A stretch of 9,393 nucleotides of DNA from a bacterium (GTDB lineage: Bacteria; CSSED10-310; JAJRTK01): contig JAJRTK010000179.1 in NCBI GenBank assembly GCA_024278345.1, forward strand, positions 1-9,393, given 5' to 3'. Under the pieces are notes generated by a model, which was given only the letters and a program-made list of their open reading frames with translations, did not search any database and had not been told where the DNA came from. A program made the translations under genes and the position numbers. Positions 1,832-9,393 of this stretch are shown here, piece after piece (position 1 is the first letter of the stretch; each line of letters starts with the position of its first letter).

Positions 1832-2155
1832 TCAGGCCGCGGCGCTGTCAGATGTTTTCAACGCGGGCTTTTCCGTGGGTGAAGAGCTGCTGCTCTTCTC
1901 CGAGGCCTTGGACGAATCGCTCTTCTCCTTCACCTTTTCTGAGGAACTGCTACTCTTCCTGCCGGCGGATTTGTCCTTCAGACCGTAGTGGTCGTTGTAC
2001 CAGCCTCCTCCCTTGAGGTGGAACGCCGCTAGAGAAATGAGTTTTTTCATCTTGCCTCCACATTCTTCGCAAGTGGTGAGCGGAGGATCTTGAAAACTCT
2101 GGATGACTTCGACGACATCTTCACAACTTTGGCATTGGTACTCGTAAATCGGCAT
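1832..2155 (-). CDS. FmdB-family zinc-ribbon protein with Ser/Lys-rich tail
   Basis: A 107-residue protein starting MPIYEYQC, the hallmark start of the FmdB/CxxC_CxxC_SSSS family. Two CxxC knuckles (C8/C11 and C29/C32) would bind one zinc. Residues 46-58 are Gly/Trp/Tyr-rich (GGGWYNDHYG), as in the family. The tail from residue 61 to the end is Lys/Ser/Glu/Ala-rich with two SSSSS runs. The frame is open ten codons further upstream (to 2185), but the family start and GGAG seven bases before the ATG at 2155 fix the start; the longer version would also begin inside the CIRCE operator. The function is not established in the family; members are called putative regulatory or nucleic-acid-binding proteins. 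Here a strong promoter with a CIRCE element precedes it, so it is inferred to be HrcA-repressed and heat-induced. It diverges from the small membrane protein gene at 2283. Confidence 0.9.
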   Translation of the reverse strand: MPIYEYQCQSCEDVVEVIQSFQDPPLTTCEECGGKMKKLISLAAFHLKGGGWYNDHYGLKDKSAGRKSSSSSEKVKEKSDSSKASEKSSSSSPTEKPALKTSDSAAA

Positions 2156-2178
2156 CTTCTTGCTCCAACGGGAACAGA

Positions 2179-2205
2179 TTAGCACTCGCTAGCGCTGACT
2201 GCTAA
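2179..2205. promoter_or_regulatory. CIRCE operator (HrcA binding site)
   Basis: TTAGCACTC, nine spacer bases, then GACTGCTAA. This matches the CIRCE consensus TTAGCACTC-N9-GAGTGCTAA at 17 of 18 arm positions with exact spacing; the only change is C for G at the third base of the right arm. It starts one base downstream of the predicted -10 box of the minus-strand zinc-ribbon gene, over the expected transcription start. This is the usual place for HrcA to block initiation, and for the transcript leader to carry the hairpin. Confidence 0.92.
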
Positions 2206-2206
2206 T

Positions 2207-2235
2207 AATCTATTTTCTAGGAGTCCGGCTGTCAA
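2207..2235 (-). promoter_or_regulatory. Sigma-70-type promoter of the FmdB-type gene
   Basis: On the minus strand, TTGACA (2235-2230, perfect -35) is followed after exactly 17 bases by TAGATT (2212-2207, four of six -10 bases). The CIRCE element lies immediately downstream. A housekeeping promoter overlapped by CIRCE is the standard arrangement of HrcA-controlled genes. Confidence 0.75.
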
Positions 2236-2477: not shown

Positions 2478-2955
2478 GGGGGCACAATCTAAGTTTGCGG
2501 AGAAGCCGGAGATTCGACGGGAGAAACCCGCTAGGAAGGGCGTCAAGGGCAAAGAACCCCGCCTCGGTTGACTCCATGGATGTCTTGATCTCCTTCGACG
2601 TCGAACTAGCCAGAAAGGCGATTTCCACAAGATTGGAGGGGTGGAGGCAGACATTGGCCAAGACCGGAGGGCTGATGGTGATTCCCGTTTACTCGTAGAC
2701 CTCCCGGGCGAGGCATTCCTCCGGTTGTTCTCCTCGCTGCATGAATCCGGCCGGGAGGCCCCAGGGGTGCTCCCGGGGCCGAAAGACGTGGCGGACGCAG
2801 AGAAGCCGCCCTTCTTCATTCCGGACAATGCCCACGGTGGCCACTCGGAAGTTCGGCATGGCGAGGCTGACGAGACCGCGGCGCAAGCTCCGGGGAATCC
2901 GTATCCAGCCAGCGCGGAGTAGGGTCTGGGCAAGGTTTTTTTTATGGTGTGGCAT
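2458..2955 (-). pseudogene. Nudix hydrolase interrupted by a single in-frame TAA
   Basis: One uninterrupted frame of 166 codons except for a TAA at codon 89 (plus-strand 2689-2691). The N-terminal part reads FRVATVGIVRNEEGRLLCVRH, a typical first Nudix strand (residues 36 on), followed by WGLPAGFMQRG. The Nudix box G-x5-E-x7-REVxE runs from G70 to E88. The next codon, which should encode the last box glutamate before TGI (residues 90-92), is TAA instead. After it the same frame continues for 76 residues with a normal Nudix C-terminus (VCLHPSNLVEIAFLA and an SxExxFF-like segment). GAA to TAA is one G-to-T change. The family hydrolyses nucleoside diphosphates linked to X and needs this glutamate for Mg2+ binding. 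With the stop, only an 88-residue fragment is made, probably inactive. The ATG at 2955 has no good ribosome site. It could be a young pseudogene, a sequencing error or, less likely, readthrough. Confidence 0.85.
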
Positions 2956-3238
2956 TTTGCAAAAAGAAAATGGGTTTCAGGAGTCTTGCCCCGAAGATGC
3001 TATACGCCCGAAAACTGGTGGTGAGACGCCTTGAGGGCAGTGAGTCCGGTTGAAGGGCGATGACTGGGGAGGGGCGGCGGACGGATTGCCGCCGACCCGA
3101 CCGGAACTCAACCAAAAGAAACGAAAGCAGTTTTCTGGAATTGTGCCCTGAAGGTCTTCCACGCCCGACAGACTCTCGGGCCCCTTTGTTCACGATGGAA
3201 TTGTTCGAATATGCTCCGCCCGCCGGTCGCGGGTGCCA
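2956..3238. other. Intergenic region between the kinase and Nudix genes
   Basis: No gene is supported here. It holds repeat copy A (3046-3135) and a 6-bp stem GCCCGA/TCGGGC at 3163-3168/3176-3181 with a 7-base loop, about 60 bases past the kinase stop. That stem has no T-tract and is only a weak terminator candidate. No convincing promoter for the Nudix gene was found. Confidence 0.45.
3046..3135 (+). repeat. Dispersed repeat, copy A
   Basis: About 90 bases that recur on the minus strand at 9253-9337 with roughly ten substitutions over the whole length by eye. Shared parts are CCGGTTGAAGGGCGATGA, a GGGG-rich step, the core GGCGGCGGACGGATTGCCG, GACCCGACCGGA, and a tail of CAACCA followed by A-rich DNA with AAAGCAG. 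The core forms a 6-bp stem CGGCGG (3075-3080) / CCGCCG (3089-3094); CCGGT (3046-3050) can also pair with ACCGG (3100-3104). It lies between the kinase and Nudix genes. Confidence 0.8.
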
Positions 3239-5524
3239 TTACATGGGGCTGGCCTGGAATCCGCGGTTTCCTTGTCTGTCTTTTGCCTCGAAGTAGTAGC
3301 TGATGTCGCGGCCTTTGTGAACTGATTCGGGGATTTCGAGGGTAAAGCTGCCATCGGGGTTTCGTGTCATGCGATGGCTTGTGAATTCGGCGGTAGCCTC
3401 GAAACGGTAGTGCAGGAGGATCTGTTCGACTCCACTTTTGTCGTTGGCCACCACCAAGAACTTCAAGGGACCCGAAGCTAAGTACAAGGGGCGATCATAG
3501 AGGACGCTTGGCGGTTTGCAATCGACAGCGCAGGCGCTCCGGTATTCTTCCAGGACTTTTCTTGCGGCTGGAAGCTCTTTTTCCCCGGTTCGGAGCCCGG
3601 CCAGTACGGATCCGGTCGTGGCGGCGTCTCCCTTCGTGAGAGCTTTTTCAGCCTTGAGAAGGGAAGTGGTCAGGTTTTCTCGATTTTTTTCTAGGCGTTT
3701 TTCCCAGGCTTCAAGGTCTTGAATGGGCGGGAAAGCCAGTTTTTTCAGCTTCTGGAGCTCTTCCAGCGCCTCGTCGTAGCGTCCACTGTTTTCCAGGCGC
3801 TGAATGCGGCCCAGCCGTCCCATTGCCAGGTTGCCTGGCGGTCCGCCAGCCATGCCCGGACTCCCAACCGCGGTGGAAGAATCGGCCCGCCAGCCGGGCG
3901 TAGCAGTTTTCGTGGGGCTCGGGGATGGGGGAAGCGCTCGGGTTGGCGATGGAGGTCTTGGGCTTCTGGAAGCCGTGGGTGAGGGTGTCCTGGATGGCGT
4001 GCCGGATGGTGTTCGGGATGGGATCGAGGTCTTGGTTGACGTTTTTGAGGGCGGCGGCGTAGCCGTTCTGGTGGGAAAGGGCGTGGCCGTTTTACCGGGA
4101 ACCGGGGTTTTGGTGGCCGTAGCCGTCTTGGTCGGGACGGGAGTTGCCGCTTGGGCGGGAACCGGGGTTTTGGTGGCCGAAGCCGTCTTGGTGGCAGCCA
4201 AAGTCATTCTGCCTGGAGAGACCTTGGCCACGAGGGCCGGTGTTAGAGCTGTGGGAGAGGAACTTTTTGTGGGAATTGTCGGGCTCTTTCCCGTTCCCCC
4301 GGCGGAAAGGACCGGGGGGGGGGGCCCAAAGGGGGTCATCGCGTGCGGGGTCGTGGTTTGAAGCCACAATCGCTTGGCCCTGGGAGCCACCTTCATCCAA
4401 GTCACCGTCTCAACGATCGCGAAAAACATGGCAAGGAGGGACAGGAGTCCCAGAATCCACCTGGAAGGAGCTTCGGGGTGGGAGGCGTCGTCGCAATCGA
4501 CCGGTGTCTTGGCGGGGGCTCCGGTTCGGCGGTGTTGGCCGGATGTTTTCCCATGGCGCTTGGGATATCGAGTTGGCGAAGCCTTGGCCTCCGGCGAGCC
4601 CGGAAGGACCGGCTGGCTGCCAGAAGGCGGGAAAGGCCGGACAGTTTCCCGTGCTCGCGCGTTTTGGGCCGGCCCGCTGGCCAGGCGGCTTGAGATTCCC
4701 TGTAGAGCACTCGCCACATCCGTCATGCTCGCCGGGCGGTTTCCCAGTTCTTTGTCCAGGCAATTTCTCACCAGCCTGAGAAGTTCCGGTGGCAGACGGT
4801 CTTCGATGGCGCCCATGGGCTCGGGCGGGGCCGTTGCGATCTTGTAGATGAGTGCCGCCAGGTCCGGGGCGGTGTAGGGCGAGTGATAACAGAGAAGCTC
4901 GTAGAGGACGACCCCAAAGGAATAGATGTCGGAATGAATTCCGGACCCCTTTCCTTGAAGTTGTTCCGGAGCCATGTAGGCTGGCGTTCCGATGGGCCGC
5001 CCCGTGAGCGTCGTGTGTTGGCTGGCCAGCTTGGCGATACCAAAGTCCACGAGCTTGATCTTGCCGCCTGGAAGAACCTGGATGTTGCCCGGTTTTACGT
5101 CGCGATGGATGACCGAATTTTGGTGGGCGTGTTCCAAGCCTCGGGCTATCTGAAGCGCCAGATCAAGCTTTTCCGGGAGGGCCAAGGGGAGCTTCTTGTC
5201 GATAATTCGGCAAAGGGACTGCCCGGGCAAGAACTCCATGGCAATGAAAGGGACGCCGCTTTCCTGGCCGAAGTCATAAATGACGATGATGTTGGGGTGA
5301 TGAAGGGATGCCGCGGCCCTGGCTTCCCGCAGGAACCTCTCCTGCATCTCCGGAACCCCAAAAAGCTGCGCGTTCATGAGCTTCAGGGCAACGACCCTTT
5401 CCAGCACCGTGTCTTTGGCCTTGTAGACGACGGCCATCCCGCCTTCTCCAAGTTGCTCGATGATTGTGTAGCGCCCAATCCGCTTCATGGGGGGGGCCGC
5501 TCTTGTGAAAAGTTGGGTGGTCAT
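3239..5524 (-). CDS. Transmembrane Ser/Thr protein kinase (PknB-like) with stalk and extracytoplasmic domain
   Basis: 761 residues from the chosen ATG. The cytoplasmic kinase domain (about 19-275) has all catalytic motifs: GEGGMAVVY (26-34), ATP-anchoring K48 in ALKLM, helix-C E67, HRDVKPGN with catalytic D142, DFG with D160, GTPAYMAPE ending at E187, and DIYSFGVVLYELL. A basic Pro-rich linker follows, then one membrane helix (356-377). Next come a Thr/Pro/Lys-rich stalk (about 439-543) with 20-residue tandem units, a helical charged segment (568-660), and a C-terminal domain (about 673-761) ending in alternating beta strands (LLHYRFEA, SFTLEIPE, ISYYFEAKD). That end resembles Ig-like or FnIII-like sensor folds. 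It is probably a receptor kinase sensing the envelope. The start is uncertain: ATGs at 5665, 5524 and 5488 all lack a clear ribosome site; 5524 gives the usual short lead-in. It contains C11 and C8 runs. It diverges from the Memo fusion. Confidence 0.9.
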   Translation of the reverse strand: MTTQLFTRAAPPMKRIGRYTIIEQLGEGGMAVVYKAKDTVLERVVALKLMNAQLFGVPEMQERFLREARAAASLHHPNIIVIYDFGQESGVPFIAMEFLPGQSLCRIIDKKLPLALPEKLDLALQIARGLEHAHQNSVIHRDVKPGNIQVLPGGKIKLVDFGIAKLASQHTTLTGRPIGTPAYMAPEQLQGKGSGIHSDIYSFGVVLYELLCYHSPYTAPDLAALIYKIATAPPEPMGAIEDRLPPELLRLVRNCLDKELGNRPASMTDVASALQGISSRLASGPAQNARARETVRPFPPSGSQPVLPGSPEAKASPTRYPKRHGKTSGQHRRTGAPAKTPVDCDDASHPEAPSRWILGLLSLLAMFFAIVETVTWMKVAPRAKRLWLQTTTPHAMTPFGPPPPVLSAGGTGKSPTIPTKSSSPTALTPALVAKVSPGRMTLAATKTASATKTPVPAQAATPVPTKTATATKTPVPGKTATPFPTRTATPPPSKTSTKTSIPSRTPSGTPSRTPSPTASRSPRPPSPTRALPPSPSPTKTATPGWRADSSTAVGSPGMAGGPPGNLAMGRLGRIQRLENSGRYDEALEELQKLKKLAFPPIQDLEAWEKRLEKNRENLTTSLLKAEKALTKGDAATTGSVLAGLRTGEKELPAARKVLEEYRSACAVDCKPPSVLYDRPLYLASGPLKFLVVANDKSGVEQILLHYRFEATAEFTSHRMTRNPDGSFTLEIPESVHKGRDISYYFEAKDRQGNRGFQASPM
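4061..4200 (-). repeat. 60-bp tandem repeat inside the kinase stalk
   Basis: Units at 4061-4120 and 4121-4180, plus a partial third at 4181-4200. 37 bases (4096-4132 and 4156-4192) are almost identical at a period of exactly 60. In the protein they give 20-residue units of the type TATATKTPVPGKTATPFPT. Because the period is a multiple of three, copy-number change would lengthen or shorten the stalk without breaking the frame. Confidence 0.8.
4314..4324 (-). repeat. C11 homopolymer tract within the kinase gene
   Basis: Eleven consecutive G on the plus strand, that is eleven C on the coding strand, encode the prolines just after the membrane helix (residues about 401-404 of the 761-residue protein). 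As given, the frame is intact through the tract. A one-base slip would separate the kinase and membrane segment from the whole extracytoplasmic part. Confidence 0.8.
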
Positions 5525-5731
5525 CGCTACCGACAAGCGGAGGCTGGAACTGGTAACAGAATGACTATACGGCTTCAGGAAGTCTCTGGAAAAAACGCGC
5601 CAACGAGGCATACGATGAATCAGAGAAAGGCGACACTGGCCGGAACTCCTGATTCCATTTTTCATTCAGGGAAAAGTGCTCGGGGTTCTCTGGGGCGATG
5701 AAAGGCGAGGGTTGGCGGTCGGGGGGAACTC

Positions 5732-5804
5732 GCGATGAAGGCGAGTGGCGGCGGACGGATTGCCGTCGCCGCGAGCGGAACGCAACCCAAAGAAAAGAAA
5801 GCGA
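5732..5804 (+). repeat. Dispersed repeat, copy B (diverged)
   Basis: It contains the same core as copies A and C, GGCGGCGGACGGATTGCCG (5748-5766), and the tail CGGAACGCAACCCAAAGAAA, then AGAAAGCG. Its core folds better than in copy A: GCGGC-GGACGG, loop ATTG, CCGTC-GCCGC, with one bulge. The left part is shortened relative to A and C. The right half matches copy D closely. Confidence 0.7.
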
Positions 5805-5888: not shown

Positions 5889-7346
5889 ATGAACAATTCT
5901 CTCGGAGCGTCCAAGGTTATTCGGAGGCCGGCTCTGGCCGGTGCCTGGTACGAAGGCGCCGAGAAGAACTTGCGGGGCCAGGTGTCGGAGTTGCTCGATT
6001 CCTGTCCGCACCGAGTGGCGGGGGATCTCCTTGCGCTCATCGAACCGCATGCCGGTTATGCTTACTCGGGGCGCAGTGCGGCCGCCGGCTACCGTTTGGT
6101 GAAGGGCCGGAAAATCGACCGCGTTCTGCTTTTGGCACCGAGCCATTATTCGGCGTTCCACGGATTCTCCATACCGGATGCCACCCATTTCAAGACGCCT
6201 CTCGGTTTGTGCGAACTCGAACTTCCCGTCCTGGATATCCTCCGGCGGAGCCGGTTCCATCAGAGACGGCCCGAGGCTCACGGTCCGGAGCATTCCATCG
6301 AGATCCACCTGCCTTTTCTTCAGTTCTGTTTGCCTGGCGCAAAACTCGTTCCAGTTTTGGTGGGGGATCTCCATGGCGAGGAGTATCAAGAACTGGCCAC
6401 GGAGCTCGATCAATGCGCCGTCGATGATGGAACGTTGGTGGTTGTCTCCTCGGACTTTACCCACCAGGGACCTCGCTTTGACTACCGTCCCTTCACCCAG
6501 AGGGTTCAGGAAAAACTGCAAGATCTCGACCATGGCGCCGCCCGGCACATCCAGAATCTCGATGCTCAAGGCTTTTTGGATTACCAGCGGAAGACCGGGA
6601 TCACCGTCTGCGGATTCCGGCCGATTGCTCTCTTGCTCCAGATGCTTCCCGCCGATACCCAAGTGCGGATCATCAGCTACACCACGTCGGGCGACATCAC
6701 GGGAGACTGGCTGAATACGGTGAGCTACATGACAATTCTTTTTCAGAAGCCCGATCCTCACCCCCCCTTCCAGCTCCCAGTGCTTCAACCAAGCGAGCAG
6801 GCCATGGCTCTAAAAATCGCCCGCGAAGCCGTCATTCGCCGGGTCAACGGGGAAGATCCTCCCCATCCGCCGGTGGACCTGCCCCCGGCTCTCTTGGAAC
6901 GAGCCTCCTGTTTTGTGACCATCCAGAAGAACCAACGGCTTCGGGGTTGCATCGGGCAGTTGGAGGCCAGTGGCCGACTGGTTCATTCCATCGTGGAAAA
7001 CGCCGTGAGCGCAGCTTGCCGAGACCCGCGTTTCAAGCCGATCCAGCCAGAAGAGCTTTCCGATATCCAGTTCGAAATCAGCGTGATGACCCCTCCAGTA
7101 ACTGTTTCCGGACCCGCCGAGATCGAGCTCGGCCGACACGGCATCATCCTGAGCAGCCATGGGCGAAGAGCGGTCTTCTTGCCCCAAGTCCCCGTGGATC
7201 AGGTTTGGACTTTGGAAGAGACTTTCGAGCACCTTTGCGCGAAGGCCAGACTCCCAGCGGACGCCTGGACCCGCGACACCCGGTTCCAGGTTTTCGAGTG
7301 CCAGGTCTTTTCAGAGGCGGACCCGCGGATTCAAGACGGAGGCTAG
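5889..7346 (+). CDS. amrB/amrA: Memo-AMMECR1 fusion (AmmeMemoRadiSam system proteins B and A)
   Basis: 485 residues, two domains in one chain. Residues about 10-286 are the Memo domain, a metal-binding fold related to extradiol dioxygenases. Metal-site residues sit in family motifs: H54 in EPHAGYAYSG, H86 in APSHYSAF, D189 and H192 in SSDFTHQG, and C241 in TVCGFRPIALLL. Residues about 305-475 are an AMMECR1 domain with its signature LRGCIG (351-356), a preceding helix (ALKIAREAV), ENAVSAACRDPRF (370-382) and a typical WTLEETFEHLC (440-450). Homologues are called AmmeMemoRadiSam proteins B and A and occur beside a radical SAM protein; that partner is not in this window. The biochemical role in bacteria is not firmly established. 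The AGGAGGG at 5878-5884, four bases before the ATG, fixes the start. A terminator follows the gene. Confidence 0.93.
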   Translation: MNNSLGASKVIRRPALAGAWYEGAEKNLRGQVSELLDSCPHRVAGDLLALIEPHAGYAYSGRSAAAGYRLVKGRKIDRVLLLAPSHYSAFHGFSIPDATHFKTPLGLCELELPVLDILRRSRFHQRRPEAHGPEHSIEIHLPFLQFCLPGAKLVPVLVGDLHGEEYQELATELDQCAVDDGTLVVVSSDFTHQGPRFDYRPFTQRVQEKLQDLDHGAARHIQNLDAQGFLDYQRKTGITVCGFRPIALLLQMLPADTQVRIISYTTSGDITGDWLNTVSYMTILFQKPDPHPPFQLPVLQPSEQAMALKIAREAVIRRVNGEDPPHPPVDLPPALLERASCFVTIQKNQRLRGCIGQLEASGRLVHSIVENAVSAACRDPRFKPIQPEELSDIQFEISVMTPPVTVSGPAEIELGRHGIILSSHGRRAVFLPQVPVDQVWTLEETFEHLCAKARLPADAWTRDTRFQVFECQVFSEADPRIQDGG

Positions 7347-9185: not shown

Positions 9186-9393
9186 TTGTGTAAATCCTGA
9201 GCCATCCCCTCATTTTTTGCTTCGGGGACGCATCCAGGTCAAGGACTCCGACAACTGCTTTTTTCTGCTGGTTGGGGTCCGGTCGGGTCGGCGGCAGTCC
9301 GTCCGCCGCCCCTCCCCTCTCATCGCCCTTCAACCGGTCAACGAGCCCCCAAACACTCTTTCCGCCTGGAAATGAGTGGATGTTTCAGGTGTA
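9186..9393. other. Window end, no gene seen
   Basis: No coding sequence is supported. The stretch contains repeat copy C at 9253-9337; the last 56 bases show nothing recognisable. A gene could begin just outside the window. Confidence 0.4.
9253..9337 (-). repeat. Dispersed repeat, copy C
   Basis: On the minus strand this is the closest relative of copy A, over its whole length: CCGGTTGAAGGGCGATGA, GGGGAGGGGCGGCGGACGGA, TGCCGCCGACCCGACCGGA, CAACCA and the AAAGCAGTT end. The 6-bp CGGCGG/CCGCCG stem is unchanged; the loop differs by one base (T to C). Confidence 0.8.

Follow-up and report, generated by a model that had tools for sequence, protein, structure and literature searches.

A CIRCE operator predicted at the promoter of a ruc-type zinc-ribbon gene

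The window, which is the whole analysed stretch of 9,393 nucleotides, contains a minus-strand gene that, judging from its sequence, is a homologue of the redox-regulated chaperone Ruc (Rv0991c) of Mycobacterium tuberculosis. The gene very probably belongs to the heat-shock response, encoding a Ruc-type chaperone under HrcA control, with its repression and induction, its binding of zinc, its redox switch and its activity as a holdase being proposed by analogy. The explanation is based on a CIRCE operator and promoter, a single hrcA gene, co-regulated groEL copies and the architecture of the protein, as well as on cysteine spacing and numbering equal to those of Ruc and on the recurrence of the CIRCE–ruc arrangement in other phyla.

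Promoter, operator and encoded protein

The features of the region 1832–2235 are as follows.

2230–2235, minus strand: −35 hexamer TTGACA (sequence and promoter scan)
2207–2212, minus strand: −10 hexamer TAGATT, separated by 17 nt from the −35 hexamer and by 1 nt from CIRCE (sequence and promoter scan)
2179–2205, minus strand: predicted CIRCE operator TTAGCAGTC-N9-GAGTGCTAA, 17 of 18 positions, over the expected transcription start
2163–2166, minus strand: Shine–Dalgarno-like GGAG, 7 nt before the ATG (sequence)
1832–2155, minus strand, stop codon included: ruc-type (FmdB family) gene, 107 aa, above the cut-offs of TIGR02605 and PF09723

The TTGACA-17-TAGATT site is the sole promoter-like site found by the promoter scan of positions 1650–2500, where 0.2 would be expected by chance. 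The promoter (2235–2207) is followed by CIRCE (2205–2179) and then by the ATG at 2155, leaving 23 nt between the operator and the gene. The operator differs at one of 18 positions from TTAGCACTC-N9-GAGTGCTAA and has a spacer of exactly 9 nt, and only 0.01 sites with up to three mismatches are expected by chance in the shuffled window. Both the promoter and the palindrome just behind it, as given in a preliminary description made from the sequence, are confirmed by these results. The inverted repeat, its 9-nt spacer, its position at the promoter and the presence of hrcA resemble HrcA/CIRCE control at groE and dnaK operons, whereas the target differs, being a small zinc-ribbon gene instead of a classical chaperone.

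Translation from the ATG at 2155 begins with MPIYEY, which fits the first positions of both TIGR02605 and Zn_ribbon_8, and with this start CIRCE lies outside the coding sequence. The GTG at 2185, which would lengthen the frame, was discarded as the start, as it falls inside the operator and upstream of the conserved MPxYEY start. The protein scores 68.8 bits against TIGR02605 (FmdB family zinc ribbon; curated cut-off 31.3) and also exceeds the cut-off of PF09723 (Zn_ribbon_8). Its N-terminal zinc ribbon carries four cysteines, C8, C11, C29 and C32, in a CX2C-N17-CX2C arrangement. In an AlphaFold2 model built from 28 aligned sequences, residues 1–40 form a three-stranded ribbon (pLDDT 93–95), while the Ser/Lys/Glu-rich tail after residue 40 is without secondary structure (pLDDT about 50), pointing to a disordered, hydrophilic C-terminal region. 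A sequence search found no solved structure among relatives, the best PDB chain having an E-value of 0.29.

The family is named after FmdB, a regulator of a formamidase operon. This name, the many functions served by zinc ribbons and the presence in the genome of two more FmdB-family members, both without CIRCE, favour another reading, in which the gene is controlled by HrcA but encodes a zinc-ribbon transcription or RNA-binding factor, or a co-chaperone with a different role, and not a redox chaperone. Such a function is unlikely, since the family member that has been tested, M. tuberculosis Ruc, is a chaperone (PMC7448276), profile searches revealed no adjoining formamidase or transporter gene in the window, and the regulation is apparently common to groEL.

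The assignment as a Ruc-type chaperone draws on detailed work in M. tuberculosis. Ruc combines a four-cysteine zinc ribbon with a disordered C-terminus and functions as a redox-regulated holdase, whose oxidised form prevents aggregation and aids refolding by DnaK; its published mutants are C8S/C11S and C29S/C32S (PMC7448276). The window protein is likewise an FmdB-type zinc ribbon with identical cysteine numbers (8, 11, 29 and 32) and a disordered hydrophilic C-terminus. The preliminary description was accurate in recognising an FmdB-type zinc ribbon, but the function is more settled than it assumed, as the homologue Ruc is known as a chaperone. Identity to other family members is only about 28–54% and the ribbon is short, both of which count against the preferred explanation.

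The HrcA regulon of the host genome

The genome assembly (6.06 Mb, 550 contigs, 88% complete), in which the window is contig C101, contains exactly three CIRCE-like sites at a limit of three mismatches, each with one mismatch, while the reversed pattern used as a control gave one match at the same threshold. Apart from the site in the window, one lies upstream of each of two groEL genes, which are the only Cpn60 genes found. A single copy of hrcA is present (PF01628, E 1.5e-56). The predicted HrcA regulon is composed of two groEL genes and the ruc-type gene. The preliminary description had suggested a genome scan for further CIRCE sites and hrcA, and its refuting condition of a genome lacking hrcA does not apply. 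Its proposal that the gene belongs to the protein-quality-control response is well supported by the presence of hrcA, by CIRCE upstream of homologues in other phyla and by the HrcA-repressed Ruc homologue.

The fetched hrcA locus contains no detected CIRCE, which differs from the HrcA regulon of groE and dnaK operons. The single groES gene (L008, G000:C358) sits apart from both groEL genes (L002, L003) and, unlike the groEL copies, has no CIRCE with up to four mismatches in its fetched locus. In M. tuberculosis, ruc is heat-induced and HrcA directly represses ruc together with groES, groEL1 and groEL2 (PMC7448276). This regulon, restated in PMC8557902 and PMC13091356, nearly equals the one predicted here. 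The two systems are alike in having an HrcA operator in the ruc promoter (here predicted) and two co-regulated groEL genes. They differ in that M. tuberculosis adds SigH at ruc, whereas the window promoter is sigma-70-like, and in that groES is under HrcA there but lacks the operator here.

Additionally, Hsp33 was not found in this genome, an absence that is uncertain given 88% completeness. This fits the reported anticorrelation, in which a scarcity of Hsp33 goes with frequent Ruc (PMC7448276). An analogous role, combining a zinc–cysteine redox switch with holdase activity, is proposed for the window protein, although its sequence is unrelated to that of Hsp33.

Elsewhere in the window, a dispersed repeat of about 60–98 bp occurs at 3031–3128 (plus strand), 5740–5802 (plus) and 9257–9352 (minus). 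A genome search yielded 40 scored copies with 81–100% identity, out of 379 first-look candidates. The repeat is thus probably a REP- or MITE-like element that this genome carries in large numbers. The window also encodes a 485-aa fusion of Memo and AMMECR1 domains, corresponding to AmmeMemoRadiSam system proteins B and A (5889–7346, plus strand), a Ser/Thr protein kinase whose Thr/Pro-rich linker derives partly from a 60-nt tandem repeat at 4058–4177 (3239–5665, minus strand), and a NUDIX domain that ends after 54 of 134 profile positions and looks truncated or frameshifted (2689–2955, minus strand).

CIRCE–ruc loci in other lineages

Of 60 diverse genomes sampled and scanned for both elements, 48 have the homologue and 40 at least one CIRCE-like site. 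CIRCE lay directly upstream of the homologue in three of them, namely the window genome, G039 (a site without mismatches, 40 nt from the start) and G047 (one mismatch, 28 nt from the start). A stricter combined pattern applied to 386 genomes matched the window alone and missed G039 and G047, and is therefore an undercount. The combined pattern found 31 contigs in GTDB r220, with CIRCE 14–44 nt upstream of the homologous start codon: 2 from Chloroflexota, 1 from Ignavibacteriota and 28 from Actinomycetota, many of these being Acidimicrobiia, where 28 is a count of pattern matches and not a share of actinobacterial ruc genes. CIRCE is absent upstream of the homologue in all seven genomes sampled from the same phylum, which counts against the preferred explanation. 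Conservation upstream of orthologues, named in the preliminary description as a check, is thus lacking within the sampled phylum but present in G039, G047 and the 31 contigs, and on balance the outcome is positive.

The promoter geometry is also shared. A −10-like hexamer occurs at the upstream (5') edge of CIRCE in 31 of 34 CIRCE–ruc loci, compared with 19% in shuffled upstream sequence, and usually its last T is the first T of CIRCE; in that position, bound HrcA would sit over the start of transcription. This common geometry argues against the palindrome being a chance sequence or a relic at which HrcA is inactive, as do the low chance expectation in the window and the location of the genome's only other two sites at groEL. 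Even though the palindrome is not kept in the seven same-phylum genomes, an inactive site is highly improbable.

At CIRCE position 7, 13 of the 34 loci (those of the window, L069, L074, L075, L077, L079–L082, L086, L092, L093 and L095) have G in place of C in the upstream half, and none shows the mirror change downstream, a count of 13 against 0 that comes from related, not independent, sequences. The asymmetry perhaps arises because the upstream half overlaps the transcription start, with position 7 near the expected first transcribed base, which is only a lead.

In the protein tree, which has 62 columns, low resolution and tips partly picked for having CIRCE, the CIRCE label must change at least three times across well-supported branches. 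The window protein is placed outside the actinobacterial branch, close to homologues that lack CIRCE, and in this placement it differs from M. tuberculosis Ruc. Since it does not group with the actinobacterial proteins, the CIRCE–ruc link appears to have arisen or survived several times; repeated gain and an ancient origin followed by losses both fit. Transfer of gene and operator together from Actinomycetota, considered because the TTAGCAGTC half-site is common to both, is not supported, as the tree, at its low resolution over 62 columns, places the window protein elsewhere.

Proposed regulation and its meaning

GroEL keeps HrcA active. In unstressed cells, GroEL-activated HrcA on CIRCE would block the sigma-70-type promoter by occupying the transcription start. 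Under heat or oxidants, unfolded clients would fill GroEL and HrcA would lose its activity, so that Ruc would be produced along with both GroELs. The Ruc-type protein would bind zinc via its four cysteines; upon oxidation, zinc would be lost and unfolded proteins would be held and then handed to DnaK.

A broader and more tentative proposal, possible but somewhat short of probable, is that Ruc was independently placed under HrcA several times in distant phyla, in most cases with a −10 box that runs into the first bases of CIRCE, making HrcA–Ruc a recurrent heat-plus-oxidation module in bacteria lacking Hsp33.

The pairing of HrcA with a ruc-type gene was already described, and all that is new is its occurrence in a further, poorly sampled lineage. 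The finding extends the idea of Ruc-type proteins in the core heat-shock regulon to another phylum beyond Actinomycetota. Moreover, the regulation favours a chaperone role for part of the very widespread 'FmdB family zinc ribbon' annotation, this branch at least. In addition, genomes outside mycobacteria are suggested in which the role of Ruc can be tested.
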